Origin: a virus
Virus record (IMG/VR): IMGVR_UViG_3300022690_001597
Span: 1-27,794 of that record
DNA length: 27,794 nt
Reading direction: 5' to 3' (one strand)
The position numbers and the translations under genes were made by a program. A model generated the notes under the pieces. The model ran no database searches. It worked only from the letters and a program-made list of their open reading frames with translations, and was not told where the DNA came from. Positions within the stretch are counted from its first letter, which is position 1; each line of letters opens with the position of its first letter. Below are positions 1,088-11,423 of this stretch, one piece after another.

Positions 1088-3415
1088 TTATTTTTTGTCA
1101 ATAATAAAGTTTACATATTCATATATGGCCTTCTTTTGAGCATCAGGTGTGGGCTCTCTTTTCCCCGTCTTGTGAAGATTATGCAGTACTAATATTTCTG
1201 AGCACATTGCCTTTTTATCCTTGTTATTTTTACTCATTCCTATTTTATCATATTGAATACTCAAGCTATTCACCTTTTTTCTTTGCTCTTTGCTAAGAGC
1301 ATGCTGCTCTTCACTATCTTCTTCTGAGATAGGAACGTAGTAATCTTTTGAATTTTGATGAATTGGGAATATGAGAGGATTTGCATTTTCATCGTCTCTT
1401 CTCGAAGCCCAGAATGAAATTGACCCGATCATGAATACATTCTTCATTGTAAATCCTTCTGGTCGCTCTACACTGAAACGATCGATTACACCTTCCGGAA
1501 CAACCATTTTCCATTCCTCAATGTCAGGATTTTCTTCGAATATAGCTTGTTTGTATGCAGATCGTGGATAAGTCTCATAACTCAATCGGAACCTATTCTT
1601 ATTCACGGCGCTATCAACAATGTCATCCACCTGGCTAAGTGCTATCGCTGCTACTGCAAATGTACCAAAATGATCATTTACCTTCTCACTAATATTAATA
1701 GGAGCCTCTATAATTACCTTCCCCATATTGAATATGTACCCCCTCTGGCTCCACGCAGTATTTCCTTTTAACTTCTGAGTAGTTTTTAGCCCTCTTGCAT
1801 ATGCTTGATTAGTAATCTTGTCAGCATGGTCTTTGTTGTATTTTTGCCCTAGCTTTTTATATTCCTCAATCGCTTTATTCTTTATGTCAAGCATGATCTG
1901 GAAATTTCCACTTTGTTGCAATACCGTCGATCCTGCCATCTTTGTGGTCTTTGCCTTTTTGTACTGATTCCTAATAAACTTCTTCAATTTATCTTCTGTC
2001 TTTTCGAAATCAGCATTAACCTTATTGAACTGATTGGTGATTTTTATTTCATTATTCGTTATTGAATCAACAAATGCTCTCTCTTTCTGCTTTATTGTCA
2101 AATCAGATTTAAGAGATTTCTTCATCTTTTCTTCGATTTCTTCTTCTTCATCAATATGGGATGTGCCATCTTCGATTCCCTCTTCCTCCCCTCCCTCTCC
2201 TTCCTGTTCTTCAAAATCCTCGTCCTCAATAACAGGCAAATTTAATGTTTTCCTGATTATGTTTTGAGTCTCTTGATCAGTGAATCTCATTCCAGACTTA
2301 GAAAGTCTCTCTATTGCTAATGAGAACTCATTCAAATCGACTTCTCCAATTTTTGACACAATTATCTTTGGGTAATTTTCTATATTGTCGAAATTCAGAT
2401 CGACAATCTGCTTAACAAGATGCCTATTTATCCTCTCAAGTATAAAGTCAATATTTCCTTTAAGTGCATTAAAAAGAAAGTCAGTCTCATTCTTGCTCTG
2501 TCCAAATGATCCAAAGCTTCTACCTGTAGAAAGGAATTTGCTTTGTAACGCGATTGCTATTTCCTGATCATGGTGCTCTATAGGCTTATTAATATCGGGA
2601 AGAGAACCATCTACTGTAGTAAACTTGAATTCAGTACCCCAAGGAGAATCAATATATCCTTGAGAATTAGATCGTATATTTCTAAGTGTATTCTCAGTCT
2701 GTGTTTTCTCTTCCGGAGATCTTTTTCCTTGTTCTGTTCTTTGAGCTGTTGGAATTCCATTAGCATGCCTCTCCATTCCCACGGCTTGGATCTTGTAAAA
2801 ATTATTCTTCATATACCAATGCTTATATGCAGGACGCAATAAGGAAACTCCCACTAGATTGTCTCCCTCTTGTTGATATGCAATATGAAATAGCTTTTCC
2901 CAGGGGATAGAATAATTATTGTGTTGCTCATTTTTTGTGAATGGATTTTTTGTAGCTATCTGTTCAATTCCAGGTCTTCCATCATTCGTCATGAATCCAG
3001 TGATCGAAATAGGGAGCCTTGGAGCGAGTTTTTTGTAAATTATTTTATCTTCAAATACTCCAAATACTTTTTCATGATACATAAATCCCCAATCATACAT
3101 CAGAAGGAGGTGTTGCAAAAAACCTCTCCATGACATATGCGGAGAAAACGCCTCTGCATCTATCCCGAATACACGACGCACAAATAGCGCAATATCAATG
3201 TCTCTTTCGTCTTCACTCCCACGTATCACATCATAATTCGCAGAAAGTATTGGATTCTTGCATGAAGAAATACCAGCAGCAACTGTTGCATCTGACTTTC
3301 TCATTTCATTAAAGATCTCTATCGATGCAGGAAATATGAGATCAGTATTATAATCAGAAGTTATGAATCCGCCCAAAACATCTGTACCTGTACCGCCTAT
3401 CTCTGGCATATGCAT
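1088..3415 (-). CDS. Portal protein, Mu gp29-like (DUF935 type), with long C-terminal extension
   Basis: Portal subunits form the dodecameric ring through which DNA enters the head. The N-terminal ~400 residues fit the Mu gp29/DUF935 portal pattern: ASIEIFNEMRKSDATVAAGI, then SWRGFLQHLLLMYDWGF, IPWEKLFHIAYQQEGDN and LLRPAYKHWYMKNNF. The protein is 775 aa, whereas gp29-type portals are usually about 500. An acidic tract (EDEDFEEQEGEGGEEEG, then EEEEIEEKMKK) separates the portal part from ~330 residues containing AYARGLKTTQKLKG and a DYYVPI segment. The C-terminal part could be a fused minor head (gp30/MuF-like) domain, but I do not see a decisive motif. The start may be the first ATG or the one two codons later (MPEIGG). 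It lies just after the large terminase gene, the normal order. Confidence 0.8.
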   Translation of the reverse strand: MHMPEIGGTGTDVLGGFITSDYNTDLIFPASIEIFNEMRKSDATVAAGISSCKNPILSANYDVIRGSEDERDIDIALFVRRVFGIDAEAFSPHMSWRGFLQHLLLMYDWGFMYHEKVFGVFEDKIIYKKLAPRLPISITGFMTNDGRPGIEQIATKNPFTKNEQHNNYSIPWEKLFHIAYQQEGDNLVGVSLLRPAYKHWYMKNNFYKIQAVGMERHANGIPTAQRTEQGKRSPEEKTQTENTLRNIRSNSQGYIDSPWGTEFKFTTVDGSLPDINKPIEHHDQEIAIALQSKFLSTGRSFGSFGQSKNETDFLFNALKGNIDFILERINRHLVKQIVDLNFDNIENYPKIIVSKIGEVDLNEFSLAIERLSKSGMRFTDQETQNIIRKTLNLPVIEDEDFEEQEGEGGEEEGIEDGTSHIDEEEEIEEKMKKSLKSDLTIKQKERAFVDSITNNEIKITNQFNKVNADFEKTEDKLKKFIRNQYKKAKTTKMAGSTVLQQSGNFQIMLDIKNKAIEEYKKLGQKYNKDHADKITNQAYARGLKTTQKLKGNTAWSQRGYIFNMGKVIIEAPINISEKVNDHFGTFAVAAIALSQVDDIVDSAVNKNRFRLSYETYPRSAYKQAIFEENPDIEEWKMVVPEGVIDRFSVERPEGFTMKNVFMIGSISFWASRRDDENANPLIFPIHQNSKDYYVPISEEDSEEQHALSKEQRKKVNSLSIQYDKIGMSKNNKDKKAMCSEILVLHNLHKTGKREPTPDAQKKAIYEYVNFIIDKK

Positions 3416-6368: not shown

Positions 6369-6923
6369 TTATTTCTTCTTTTTCTTCTTAGGTTTTGGCA
6401 TCGGGTTGAAGTCTTTCATTTTTGAAGTTGGATTCCTACGAAAAGGATCATATGGAACTGTCAGTGGATGTATCTCTTGAGGTGGTTCGATCTCTACTGG
6501 TTTCAAAAGTATTAATTCCTTTTTAAGGTGACCAGGTGGCACTCTAGCGCCAAGGCAATCCTTGCATATCTTCCACTCTTCACCGTCTTCCCATTTGTAC
6601 CACAAATGCATTTTCTCAATATTGCAGAAATCGCATGGGGCTACGTTGTCATTTGATCCATTTATACTTATATTCTGTGAAGACTCTCCCTTCATCGTAA
6701 TTTTCGAAATTCGAGCGGCTCTTACTTCTAAGATTCCTTTATTTTCAACTTGGTCCACTATTTCGTCTGCCACCTCTTTTTTGGTCGGTTCTTTGCATTT
6801 CTCGCTCTCAATACTTCCTGCCTTCCAATATCCCACAACACCTTCAGCACCAATGACCTCACAATCTTCATCGCGATAATGCCTAAATCCCCGTTGGAAG
6901 TCTCGTTGTTTAACTGTTTTCAT
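6369..6923 (-). CDS. Hypothetical protein with zinc-knuckle-like CxxC pairs and poly-Lys tail
   Basis: 184 aa. The central segment CDFCNIEKMHLWYKWEDG then CKDC (around residues 98-124) is a four-cysteine treble-clef-like zinc site, suggesting nucleic-acid or protein binding. The C-terminus is Pro/Lys rich and ends in six lysines (PKPKKKKKK). It is preceded by, and overlaps by 14 bp, a tiny membrane-protein gene. Function unknown. Confidence 0.7.
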   Translation of the reverse strand: MKTVKQRDFQRGFRHYRDEDCEVIGAEGVVGYWKAGSIESEKCKEPTKKEVADEIVDQVENKGILEVRAARISKITMKGESSQNISINGSNDNVAPCDFCNIEKMHLWYKWEDGEEWKICKDCLGARVPPGHLKKELILLKPVEIEPPQEIHPLTVPYDPFRRNPTSKMKDFNPMPKPKKKKKK

Positions 6924-9130: not shown

Positions 9131-9913
9131 TTATCTAACAGATTTTAAAATTTCCAACTTCTTCCTTGGCGTTGTCTCAGCTACAAACTTCTGAGCCTTC
9201 GCCTTGTTTATGTGTCCTTCTATTTTGGACTGCTTTTCTTCTAATTCCCTGTTCATCCACTGCTGAAGAGTAAGATTGTGATCTAGCTTGTCCCGAAACT
9301 TCTTCTGAGACTTTTTATCTGAAAAAGCCCATATCTTCATGTTATCCATAGTTTCATCTCTCATTTCTTCTCCATACTTCACTGCTAAATTTTCGTGTTC
9401 TTTTTCTGTTAGCCAAATACAATCTAAAAATAAATTAGTTCCTTCCCTCTTTCCAAAAACTTTTTCTTTTATAAGTTCAGGTTTAGATTCAGGTTCAAGT
9501 TCAGGTTTAGTTAAAGTTAAGGTTGTCGCAGGACGTATGCAGTCTGTACCCACCTTGTGCCCAGCCTGTATCTTATCAAGTATGTATGCGGGTATCTCAG
9601 CCTTAGCGTTTTCAATACCTTTTTTTATAGAAGGATTTTCATTTTGATACTTTGAGAAGTTTTTTATGTGTACCCACCCATCAAAAAACACAACCTTACC
9701 AGCCTGTTGCAGAGTGTATATAGCCTGTTTTAAGTCCTTCTTATTTATACCTGTCTCAAATTCAATAGTTCTCATAGAACACTCATATATGCCACAAAGG
9801 TTAGTGTGCTCATTTGTGAGTATATATATAAATAGGAGTTTCTCATGAGTTTTAAGCTCTTGTATGAATGAATCACTCCATAGCCGTGTATTTATTATTC
9901 GCTGCTTAGCCAT
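9131..9913 (-). CDS. Replisome organizer / replication-initiator-like protein
   Basis: The N-terminal ~100 residues (RIINTRLWSDSFIQELKTHE, KLLFIYILTNEHTNLCGIYE, FETGINKKDLKQAIYTLQQA) match the winged-helix opening of phage replication organizers of the DnaD/replisome-organizer type. These bind the origin and recruit host helicase. A Thr/Pro/Glu/Lys linker (TLTLTKPELEPESKPELI) follows, encoded by short direct repeats that may be iterons. The C-terminal half is charged and helical. It overlaps the end of the HNH gene by 8 bp. Helicase loading itself is not shown here. Confidence 0.75.
   Translation of the reverse strand: MAKQRIINTRLWSDSFIQELKTHEKLLFIYILTNEHTNLCGIYECSMRTIEFETGINKKDLKQAIYTLQQAGKVVFFDGWVHIKNFSKYQNENPSIKKGIENAKAEIPAYILDKIQAGHKVGTDCIRPATTLTLTKPELEPESKPELIKEKVFGKREGTNLFLDCIWLTEKEHENLAVKYGEEMRDETMDNMKIWAFSDKKSQKKFRDKLDHNLTLQQWMNRELEEKQSKIEGHINKAKAQKFVAETTPRKKLEILKSVR
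9473..9510. repeat. Iteron-like direct repeats inside the replication gene
   Basis: AAGTTCAGGTTTAG occurs exactly at 9473-9486 and 9497-9510 (24-bp period), with a partial copy ATTCAGGTTC at 9487-9496 between them. More AGTTAAAG-type degenerate units follow to about 9522. Repeats inside an initiator gene resemble the lambda O arrangement, where they form the origin. They could equally be just the coding consequence of a Pro/Glu linker. Confidence 0.45.
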
Positions 9914-10442
9914 CTTGGTCTTCTCTTAAATGCTTTAAAACACCGCACATATATGTAAATTTTTCATCATTAGGAACATAATATCTATCCCAAGCAATAT
10001 CTATAGACTTTAATATCATCTCAGCGCTATTACTTTCTAATAAACGCCTAATATCTTTTTCTCCTTTTTTTGTAATATAATTCTCTCCATCAGAGGCTTC
10101 TTCCCAAGCGTCTAGAAATATTTTTATCTCTTTTTTCTTTAATTTCTTTGACTTTTTTATATACCTATAATATGCATTCAATTGAGACTTTTTCTCCTCA
10201 AGCTGTTTCATTTCTAATTCAAACTTTTCTCCCTTTGTCTTTGATATATCAACACTGTCACCAGCCTTTCCTCTATTGCAATCAAAACAAGAAGTAATCA
10301 AATTGATTTCTTCATCGCCTCCTCCATCCTTTCTTGAAACCATGTGATCTGCTTCAAGTATCACGTCAGGTGGTTTTCTTCCACAATATTGACATGTGAA
10401 ATTATCTCTTTTAAATATCTTGAAACGAATTCTTTTTGAAAT
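9906..10442 (-). CDS. HNH endonuclease family protein with long C-terminal domain
   Basis: The sequence RFKIFKRDNFTCQYCGRKPP, ILEADHMVSRKDGGGDEEIN, LITSCFDCNRGKAGD is a full HNH/zinc domain: Cys17 and Cys20, DH at 32-33, Asn near 47, Cys52 and Cys55. The first GTG or ATG codon in this frame lies inside the domain. The family normally begins M-S-K-R-I-R-F, and ISKRIRF begins at an ATT codon (10440-10442), so I infer an ATT start; the frame is closed by TAA at 10470. The ~120 residues after the nuclease are Lys-rich and helical (YYRYIKKSKKLKKKEIKIFL) and do not belong to the HNH core. The gene precedes the replication protein. The start region overlaps one arm of the inverted repeats at 10451-10540. 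Confidence 0.75.
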   Translation of the reverse strand: MSKRIRFKIFKRDNFTCQYCGRKPPDVILEADHMVSRKDGGGDEEINLITSCFDCNRGKAGDSVDISKTKGEKFELEMKQLEEKKSQLNAYYRYIKKSKKLKKKEIKIFLDAWEEASDGENYITKKGEKDIRRLLESNSAEMILKSIDIAWDRYYVPNDEKFTYMCGVLKHLREDQDG

Positions 10443-10450
10443 TGAAATTT

Positions 10451-10540
10451 TTCGCAGGGATAAAATTATTTACTCCTATTGACTACCATACACAAAAACT
10501 ATCCCTGCGAAGAGTTAGGAAGAAGTATGGTAGCCAGTAG
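10451..10540. ncRNA. Interleaved inverted repeats forming a possible pseudoknot
   Basis: TTCGCAGGGA (10451-10460) is the exact reverse complement of TCCCTGCGAA (10502-10511). CTATTGACTACCATAC (10476-10491) pairs with GTATGGTAGCCAGTAG (10525-10540) with one mismatch and one G-U. The arms are in order A-B-A'-B', which gives an H-type pseudoknot, or two competing states. A third partial copy, TTCGCAGGA, lies at 10558-10566. It could be a 5' leader regulatory RNA for the minus-strand HNH gene, the start of a plus-strand RNA, or a protein-binding operator or origin. Confidence 0.55.
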
Positions 10541-10577
10541 TAACAAAGAATCTCATTTTCGCAGGAAGTTAATGTAT

Positions 10578-10740
10578 CCCCACCTTACACCAAACAGTGT
10601 GCGATAGTCAAGGGGTTCATCAAATAATAATACGGCATAGTTAAGCCATTATTCCAAACACAAGGAAAGATTGTGTTTGAACTCATAATAAGAAAGCCGA
10701 AGTTTCAGAGGTGGGAATACTCCACCTCTATTAATACCCG
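10578..10740 (+). ncRNA. Hairpin-dense noncoding stretch
   Basis: No credible protein gene. Short perfect hairpins follow one another: ACAC/GTGT (10587-10590/10597-10600), CCCC/GGGG (10578-10581/10612-10615), CAAACACAA/TTGTGTTTG (10655-10663/10671-10679, loop GGAAAGA), and AGAGGTGG/CCACCTCT (10707-10714/10722-10729, loop GAATACT). CCCACC at 10579-10584 can also pair with GGTGGG at 10710-10715, closing the whole segment. This looks like part of a large structured RNA; the strand is inferred from the downstream units. Confidence 0.5.
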
Positions 10741-10758
10741 CTAATTATCAAAAAACAT

Positions 10759-10787
10759 TTGACTTTCCTTTTTATTTTTGCTAAGTT
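10759..10787 (+). promoter_or_regulatory. Sigma70-like promoter before the tRNA-like RNA
   Basis: TTGACT (10759-10764), a 17-bp spacer, then TAAGTT (10782-10787). The spacer is T-rich and matches that of the promoter at 11890 (TTGACTTTCnnTTTTATTT), which supports both. It would drive the RNA cluster starting at 10876. The -10 box is weak. Confidence 0.5.
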
Positions 10788-10875: not shown

Positions 10876-11136
10876 GCGGGGGTGGCGGAATAGGTAAACG
10901 CTAGGCAGTTTGCGCTGCCGAGAAGCAAAGGACTCTGTGATCTTAATCGAAATACTCAGAGAATGACTAGCCGCCAAATATTTTGAGAACAGAGTAGTAG
11001 AGTGCCAAGCTGCGGTGTTCCCTTGTGTGAGAGTTGATCCCGTGTGGCAACGGAGTACCCTGACAACATATACGGGCTATAAGGACTCAAAGCTGAATAT
11101 TTGGTCTCTGTAGGGTGCAAATCCCTGCCCCCCGCA
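10876..11136 (+). ncRNA. tRNA-Leu-like cloverleaf with ~190-nt insertion in the variable region
   Basis: Acceptor GCGGGGG (10876-10882) pairs with CCCCCGC (11129-11135), then A. A leucine-type D arm follows (TGGCGGAATAGGTAAACGC, 10883-10901). The next hairpin is GGCAG/CTGCC (10904-10908/10915-10919), whose loop TTTGCG has 6 nt instead of 7. The T arm is TAGGG-TGCAAAT-CCCTG (11111-11127), with G replacing the usual T55, and one extra C lies before the acceptor. Between the anticodon-like arm and the T arm are 191 nt (10920-11110). They are closed by GAGA/TCTC (10920-10923/11105-11108), CCAAATATT/AATATTTGG (10974-10982/11096-11104) and TTGAG/CTCAA (10983-10987/11086-11090). Inside are a CTCTG/CAGAG hairpin and interleaved GTTG/CAAC and CCCGT/ACGGG pairings, a possible pseudoknot. 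No CCA is encoded. Alternatives are a tRNA with an intron or part of a larger RNA. Confidence 0.7.
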
Positions 11137-11242
11137 ATCGTAGCTTAGACTGAGGTGGAATGATTCATATCTCCTCGGTCAGAAGGGTATCAAGGACGGA
11201 GCGCGCCTTTCTCTCCGATCCCGTCTCAGTCTAGGTTACGAT
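11137..11242 (+). ncRNA. Long hairpin RNA domain, copy A
   Basis: ATCGTAGCTTAGACTGAG (11137-11154) pairs along its full 18 nt with CTCAGTCTAGGTTACGAT (11225-11242), using two G-U pairs and no mismatch. The enclosed ~70 nt contain further pairings (GAGG/CCTC near 11153-11177, GGAG/CTCC near 11200-11218). It begins one base after the tRNA-like element. Its arm sequences recur in copy B at 11325, so this is a repeated RNA module. Function unknown. Confidence 0.65.
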
Positions 11243-11248
11243 CAAAAT

Positions 11249-11320
11249 GTGGGAGTTTGAGGGAATATATTGAATACCTCAAATGGAATTCCTTCTGGAG
11301 TGACTTTCAATAACTCCCAC
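11249..11320 (+). ncRNA. 72-nt structured element between the two long hairpins
   Basis: GTGGGAGTT (11249-11257) pairs with AACTCCCAC (11312-11320). Inside, TGAGG/CCTCA (11258-11262/11277-11281) and TATTGAA/TTCAATA (11268-11274/11306-11312) are interleaved, so they form a pseudoknot or alternate. The closing stem is followed by ACCA. Size and 3' ACCA recall a tRNA, but no T arm can be drawn. It is separated from its neighbours by about five bases on each side. Confidence 0.5.
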
Positions 11321-11324
11321 ACCA

Positions 11325-11404
11325 ATCGTAGCTTAGAATGAGGTAAAGGGGAACGGTTCCAGCTAGCATGGTCACTGCTCCTTTACTTCTTTCTAGGTTA
11401 CAAT
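11325..11404 (+). ncRNA. Long hairpin RNA domain, copy B
   Basis: The arm at 11325-11351, beginning ATCGTAGCTTAGAATGAGGT, pairs with 11378-11404, ending TCTAGGTTACAAT. This gives 27 nt of helix with five G-U or A-C-type transitions and one mismatch. The apex holds a GGAAC/GTTCC hairpin. The first 13 nt are identical to copy A, and the 3' arm repeats TCTAGGTTAC. Differences between the copies are mostly transitions that keep pairing, which points to selection on structure. The next gene begins 20 bases later. Confidence 0.65.
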
Positions 11405-11423
11405 TTATATTTTTATCTTCATT

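Follow-up and report, generated by a model that had tools for sequence, protein, structure and literature searches.

Our study has uncovered a large family of phage RNAs that had hitherto escaped annotation, in which a constant frame composed of the acceptor stem, the D arm and the T arm of a leucine tRNA flanks an insert that, as displayed in the comparison of sequences, replaces the anticodon and variable arms. One of its members is located at positions 10876 to 11136 (+ strand) of the window, the entire stretch of 27,794 nucleotides analysed here, which constitutes a 27.8-kb IMG/VR virus record with genes for portal, terminase, HNH, DnaD-like and Erf-like proteins. We regard this element as a tRNA-framed cassette RNA encoded by the phage; its tRNA-like ends would recruit processing enzymes of the host and its insert would act on a host-specific target, a reading to which we assign a probability of about 0.45. 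The element is not covered by any family of Rfam 15, none of the long noncoding RNAs of phage K known from RNA-seq is a member, and our search of the open-access literature has found no prior description of the family, which is weak evidence of absence.

The features of the frame are well defined in the window. A first-pass annotation of this DNA had proposed a 7-bp acceptor, a leucine-type D arm and a T arm in the order found in tRNAs, all of which are present on the + strand. The element encompasses 261 nucleotides including the discriminator A11136 and it matches the descriptor of the family in 7/7 acceptor pairs, 21/21 positions of the D-arm consensus and 6/6 pairs of the T stem. Its acceptor stem is formed by GCGGGGG (10876–10882) and CCCCCGC (11129–11135), the latter followed by the discriminator with no encoded CCA (11129–11136). 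T8, G9 and the leucine-type D arm GCGGAATAGGTAAACGC (10883–10901, with the arm at 10885–10901), which contains a 3-bp stem, A14 and G18G19, are near-invariant in the family. The T arm GTAGGG-TGCAAAT-CCCTGC (11110–11128) carries a G at position 55, and its stem comprises 6 bp rather than 5, a property that has emerged as a signature of the family. Imposing this frame on the element is energetically inexpensive, with −81.5 compared to −81.9 kcal/mol for the minimum-free-energy fold and thus a cost of only 0.4 kcal/mol.

The region between both arms is less well determined. The D arm is followed by a hairpin resembling an anticodon arm (GGCAG-TTTGCG-CTGCC, 10904–10919), whose previously described 6-nt loop exists in the window but which is private to this member and not a feature of the family. 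The hypervariable insert, the putative cargo, extends from 10920 to 11109, and other members match the element only in its frame. The nested helices assigned to the insert in the annotation are found in its sequence, where a 9-bp helix between CCAAATATT (10974–10982) and AATATTTGG (11096–11104) forms an exact inverted repeat for which no covariation is available, and where TTGAG (10983–10987) is complementary to CTCAA (11086–11090) and GAGA at 10920 to TCTC at 11105. The same holds for a possible pseudoknot between TAGCC (10968–10972) and GGCTA (11075–11079). Since the 261 nucleotides fold no better than shuffled sequences (z −0.97) and no second phage with the same insert was detected among the family members found, these helices are not individually supported. 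Protein searches for relatives of the virus itself returned only distant phages, all of which are devoid of the element.

The extent of the family became apparent from the conservation of the D arm. In the window, 22 nucleotides of this region are identical in 17 Enterococcus phages, and the match in phage EFDG1 led to an unannotated stretch of 204 nucleotides with the same anatomy. This copy shares the D arm, carries a different acceptor (GTCACTG/CAGTGAC) and the T arm GTAAGG-TGCAAAT-CCTTAC, and starts 2 nucleotides past the 3' end of a genuine tmRNA. For a systematic search, IMG/VR was scanned with a pattern for the D arm and, in independent runs, with two patterns for the T arm. The former retrieved 64 stretches. 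In the searches based on the T arm alone, a D-arm match together with a complementary acceptor was found within 700 nucleotides for 136 of the 177 TGCAAAT arms among the matches listed, a count that takes in loci of the D-arm pattern, and both features also accompany 64 of the 80 paired T arms among the matches listed in the second set. Together, the family comprises at least 189 unique members, of which at least 158 are left after removal of those with related inserts. The frame descriptor yields 146 matches in the 1.88 Mb of fetched loci compared to none in the reversed sequences, which places the frame far beyond chance. When about 85,000 species genomes of bacteria and archaea were scanned for exact matches to 21 nucleotides of the D arm, only three contigs were identified, and the element thus appears to be mainly phage-borne. 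Members in named phages include those of SPP1, phiFL2A, Lacticaseibacillus R24.2, Paenibacillus Pd_22F, Lactobacillus Lpa804, Bacillus Grass, and Listeria PSA and B054.

The frame common to these sequences consists of a 7-bp acceptor, the D arm TGGCGGAATAGGTRRACGC and a 6-bp T stem with a TGCAAAT loop, and it lacks an encoded CCA, which is found in only one of 119 members. Within a first set of 124 unique members, T8, A14 and A17 are invariant, G18 and G19 are found in 122 and 116 cases, the T loop reads TGCAAAT in 123, and 93 contain AT before the T stem. In contrast to this strong conservation, the same set contains 80 different acceptor 7-mers. Among the 158 representatives, acceptor pairs 1–6 are paired in a fraction of 0.87–1.0, compared to 0.40–0.57 after dealing the letters of the 3' strand anew, and T-stem pairs 2–4 in 0.98–1.0, compared to 0.62–0.77. 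As pairing in both stems was itself a criterion of the search (at least 6/7 acceptor and 5/6 T pairs), the number of pair types, which ranges from three to six for each acceptor and T-stem pair, provides the fairer measure. The search for homologues with covariation that had been proposed in the annotation has thus provided at least 158 representatives whose acceptor and T-stem pairs covary. Beyond the seven acceptor pairs, complementarity persists in only about half of the members. A relation between distant parts of the molecule is reflected in position 17 of the D loop, where an A always coincides with a 6-bp T stem and a TGC loop (34/34) and a T with a canonical 5-bp stem and a TTC loop (18/18), a coupling that argues for a folded elbow.

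Sequences with a T at this position form a second class (L011, L014, L016, L052 and others), which carries a canonical 5-bp TTCGA T arm, is 70–371 nucleotides long and likewise lacks an anticodon arm; two of them (L010 and L028) encode ACCA. Five members (L084, L121, L129, L145 and L186) have a D arm that reads TGGCGGAATAGAC, after which an additional insert seems to break up the remainder of the D loop.

The family RNAs range from 51 to 260 nucleotides, with the copy in the window being the longest among the members listed and those in L092 and phiFL2A, which contain almost no insert, the shortest. Within the insert, a single feature recurs regularly, namely a helix of variable length that ends just before a 2-nt linker, usually AT, leading to the T stem. 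This helix has a mean length of 6.0 bp compared to 4.6 bp in shuffled sequences. A hairpin directly following the D stem is not conserved, as it is found in 51% of members and in 52% of shuffles, and the claim that the anticodon-like arm is retained and a domain grafted onto the variable arm alone is thus not supported. Instead, the enrichment of a single helix before the linker and the missing conservation of a hairpin after the D stem suggest that the insert stands in for both the anticodon and the variable arms. In 17 of 107 members (p≤0.05), which is in excess of expectation, the linker shows complementarity to the loop of the pre-T helix, and compensatory changes in this pairing are found in L199, L278 and L300 (CGGGTG/CACCCG, CGAGTG/CACTCG). 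We consider this pairing in some members, as deduced from their sequences, to be a pseudoknot like the one suspected by the earlier reader, which in the window itself is defined by complementarity. No convincing motif is common to the inserts, they fold only slightly better than shuffled sequences (mean z −0.74), and there is no excess of antisense matches to the contigs of their own phages.

A further property of the inserts concerns their distribution, which by sequence comparison shows that they are unrelated between most phages, swapped at single loci and common to unrelated phages of one host genus. At a single locus of Schiekvirus, the frame parts of EFDG1, 113 and EFP01 are 89–100% identical and their inserts only 39–45%. 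In phage iF6, the element is absent exactly from acceptor to acceptor plus ATA, with the sequence CCATA-GACTGCC corresponding to CCATA-[element]-ATA-GACTGCC in EFP01. A similar exchange is observed in Listeria phages including PSA (loci L113, L118, L172 and L331), with 88–99% identity of the upstream DNA, 77–100% of the frame and 30–51% of the inserts. The opposite relationship is found for L113 and L166, with 96% identity in the insert and 50% upstream, and for L118 and L131, with 99% and 48%. Used as query, the insert of SPP1 identifies only Bacillus phages, which belong to two unrelated groups (SPP1 and the SPO1-like phages Grass, SPG24 and BSP38), and a Listeria insert only Listeria phages, including temperate siphophages and unrelated P70-like phages of 65–67 kb. 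The same insert is thereby kept at 89–97% identity in phages that are unrelated but infect the same host genus, which implies that inserts move between phages within that genus. This movement fits selection by the host, although co-infection alone would give the same pattern, and the exchange among phages of the same host may thus be plain transfer without selection.

With respect to known systems, the family resembles tRNA-Leu in its D arm (TGGCGGAATNGGTRRACGC, with A14 and G18G19), its 7-bp acceptor and its tRNA-type T loop, but it is distinguished by the absent anticodon arm, G55, the 13-bp stack of acceptor and T stem, the variable discriminator and the lack of a CCA, and tRNA finders fail to detect it. 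Whereas the anticodon arm of a tRNA contains a 5-bp stem and a 7-nt loop, the hairpin in the window has a loop of six nucleotides and no such arm is conserved in the family. For the window element, neither ARAGORN, including the proposed long-intron search extended to introns of 3 kb, nor Rfam at gathering and relaxed thresholds returned anything relevant, and ARAGORN in its default setting does not detect a tRNA after excision of the insert by hand. Its A73 would be compatible with leucine charging, but a discriminator A is found in only 88 of the 158 members, and charging by LeuRS is thus unlikely for many of them.

A related architecture is found in tmRNA (RF00023), where acceptor, D loop and T arm are kept and the anticodon arm has given way to a long insert with a closing helix between the D and T regions. 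The initial description had used this property to set the element apart, a contrast that does not hold, since the insert of the family likewise replaces the anticodon arm together with the variable arm and the closing helix before the T arm is longer than in shuffles. Members are also often found beside tRNAs, and the copy in EFDG1 immediately follows a genuine tmRNA. The family differs from tmRNA by a proper 3-bp D stem of the leucine type, the 6-bp T stem with its TGCAAAT loop and the non-conserved insert. Neither the tmRNA covariance model nor the tmRNA search of ARAGORN, which does detect the genuine tmRNA next to the element of EFDG1, matches the window element, whose identity as tmRNA was rejected on this basis. 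ARAGORN does not find a tag reading frame in the window, and the inserts of about 25–40 nucleotides in short members leave no room for a tag module. The group I intron core and the ROOL and GOLLD models of Rfam are equally unmatched at the window element. The claim of an RNA that resembles tRNA-Leu and contains a foreign domain between D and T arms, rather than a spliced tRNA or a tmRNA, is thus borne out, with no match to intron or tmRNA models and with members of 51 nucleotides that lack the middle part.

The CI RNA of phage P4 is, like C4 of phages P1 and P7, a small phage RNA, which is a property they share with the family, although the latter does not match any Rfam family. To our knowledge, the combination of a tRNA-Leu D arm with a swappable insert has no counterpart in either of them. 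The precursor of the C4 antisense RNA is, according to the work of Hartmann (1995) as cited in PMC4919922, cut by host RNase P, and the substrates of this enzyme also include tmRNA, MALAT1-type tRNA mimics, phage antisense RNAs and some mRNAs (PMC4919922). ROOL and GOLLD, which are noncoding RNAs of phages, occur close to tRNA islands and in some cases have tRNAs linked to them (PMC12286853), and although the family resembles them in being noncoding and sometimes near tRNAs, it is smaller and framed by tRNA parts. A ROOL RNA (L138:667–1248) is located 14 nucleotides upstream of a member at 1262–1384. Its occurrence in only 2 of 57 records carrying the element led us to reject a general link between the family and ROOL.

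The genomic setting of the family is that of intergenic gaps with a median length of 489 nucleotides, where the elements are mostly oriented as the upstream gene. In a recurrent arrangement, a late activator (ArpU/Alt-like) or sigma factor is followed by the RNA, HNH and terminase, and many members are located at the head of the late operon. The 51-nt member of phiFL2A precedes the terminase genes, the 109-nt member of SPP1 is found between head genes 9 and 11, and those of EFDG1, Lpa804 and Grass are embedded in tRNA clusters. Additional TTCRA T arms are found within 500 nucleotides upstream in 26 and downstream in 23 of 124 members, compared to a background of 4%. Odd tRNA-like units with such T arms reside beside the element in R24.2, SPP1 and phiFL2A (L198:2876–2936 and 3251–3306, L196:2717–2763, L197:3151–3223). 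In SPP1, a second structure with T arm and acceptor is found just downstream of the element at the site of the published terminator (6780–6824; PMC6316719). The same annotation includes a gp10, whose number would place it in the region of the element.

We infer the processing, stability and target of the cassette RNA as follows. The frame would probably fold as acceptor and elbow of a tRNA and be excised from a longer phage transcript, by RNase P of the host at the 5' end of the frame and by an enzyme for tRNA 3' ends, such as RNase Z, at its 3' end. Features that count for such processing are the drop of pairing past seven acceptor pairs and the exact absence of the element in iF6. In EFDG1, the spacing of two nucleotides from the tmRNA, as in tRNA operons, is suggestive of a 5' end made by RNase P. 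The missing conserved anticodon arm and the 13-bp stack of acceptor and T stem make decoding unlikely, and we would expect with good confidence that the RNA is unable to decode. The frame would thus release and protect a domain otherwise buried in a longer transcript. We tentatively propose that the released RNA with its protected ends presents the insert, often a stem-loop and sometimes containing a pseudoknot, to a host-specific target, and that inserts are replaced in response to changes in hosts or defences. A more speculative extension considers the family as a new class of phage RNA effectors, where a tRNA-mimicking frame hijacks processing to mature and protect interchangeable, genus-matched cargo, possibly blocking a defence or enzyme of the host. 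The family belongs among tRNA-like RNAs, and there is a fair chance that it merits a separate class.

The weak folding of the inserts, the lack of antisense matches and the two members with hardly any insert all count against a cassette. In another scenario, only the frame would be functional, as decoy of the tRNA elbow that binds RNase P, RNase Z, the CCA enzyme, LeuRS or a tRNA-sensing defence of the host, with the insert serving as free spacer. The near-invariance of the frame, inserts that share no motif, the 51-nt members, and the G55 and 6-bp T stem that set the family apart from real tRNAs would agree with this scenario. We still consider it unlikely, as a free spacer should drift and not be conserved in unrelated phages of one genus or replaced as a whole next to near-identical upstream DNA. 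Alternatively, the element could be a structural module within a larger ornate noncoding transcript of 500–1000 nucleotides of the GOLLD or ROOL kind. The long intergenic gaps, the strong folding of the neighbouring regions between 10446 and 11405 of the window (z down to −7.9), the loci of phiFL2A and R24.2, which fold well over 580–700 nucleotides, the frequent T arms nearby and the member following a ROOL RNA all point in this direction. Yet ROOL is rare in records carrying the element, GOLLD is unmatched in the loci scanned with Rfam and the flanks are not conserved between members, which renders this proposal quite doubtful.

The recurrent position ahead of HNH and terminase genes could also be explained by a processing or regulatory site in the leader of the late operon, in keeping with the cleavage of phage antisense RNAs and some mRNAs by RNase P referred to above, where a cut by RNase P at the mimic parts the leader from the mRNA of the structural genes and the small RNA is a by-product. 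This explanation appears improbable in light of the copies located between head genes of SPP1 and in the tRNA clusters of EFDG1 and Grass, and it leaves the exchange of inserts unexplained. The precise presence and absence at the CCATA site of Schiekvirus, where ATA flanks the element on either side when the site is filled, is reminiscent of a selfish mobile cassette whose terminal inverted repeat would be the acceptor stem. We find, however, that the D and T arms and not the ends are conserved, that the highly diverse acceptors pair as RNA stems of exactly the length found in tRNAs and that no enzyme recurs nearby, so that this origin is very improbable. Finally, although GGCAGT/GCTGCC in the window might be read as P1 of an intron with a U.G pair, an ordinary tRNA-Leu containing an intron is contradicted by the absence of any match to intron families and of a 3' partner for the anticodon stem upon inspection, and by at least 158 relatives with 6-bp T stems and no anticodon arm, and is thus hardly tenable.

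If correct, the cassette reading would define an overlooked RNA module in phages of Bacillus, Listeria, Enterococcus, lactic acid bacteria and many uncultured hosts, with SPP1, a textbook phage, and the SBSphiJ phages employed in defence screens among its carriers, and it would explain part of the long 'empty' gap before the terminase genes. By combining tRNA mimicry with a modular exchange of RNA domains, the module may be the RNA counterpart of exchangeable anti-defence and exclusion genes. Even if only the frame matters, it represents a version of the tRNA elbow that is abundant in nature and whose 6-bp T stem is unexplained. In SPP1, the family is open to direct testing in a laboratory phage.

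Several observations concern the surroundings of the elements. In the window, three strong hairpins are found at 11137–11405 on the + strand. The first (11137–11242, z −5.6), directly 3' of the element, and the third (11324–11405, z −7.9) have the closing stem ATCGTAGCTTAGA/TCTAGGTTACGAT in common. The middle hairpin (11248–11324, z −5.1) contains an acceptor-like 7-bp stem GTGGGAG/CTCCCAC and terminates in CTCCCAC-A-CCA without a T arm. On the other side, the region between the element and a divergent HNH gene (10446–10760) is noncoding, strongly folded (overall z −4.5) and contains TTTTCGCAGG repeats. The HNH frame (9906–10440, − strand) seems to run on upstream of its first ATG, GTG or TTG (RKISISKRIRFKIFKRDNFTCQYCGRKPPDV...), and the gene may thus start at a rare codon or be altered. 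In Enterococcus phage 113 (L327), an annotated group I intron endonuclease is located just upstream of a tmRNA 3'-end sequence, which is directly followed by the element.
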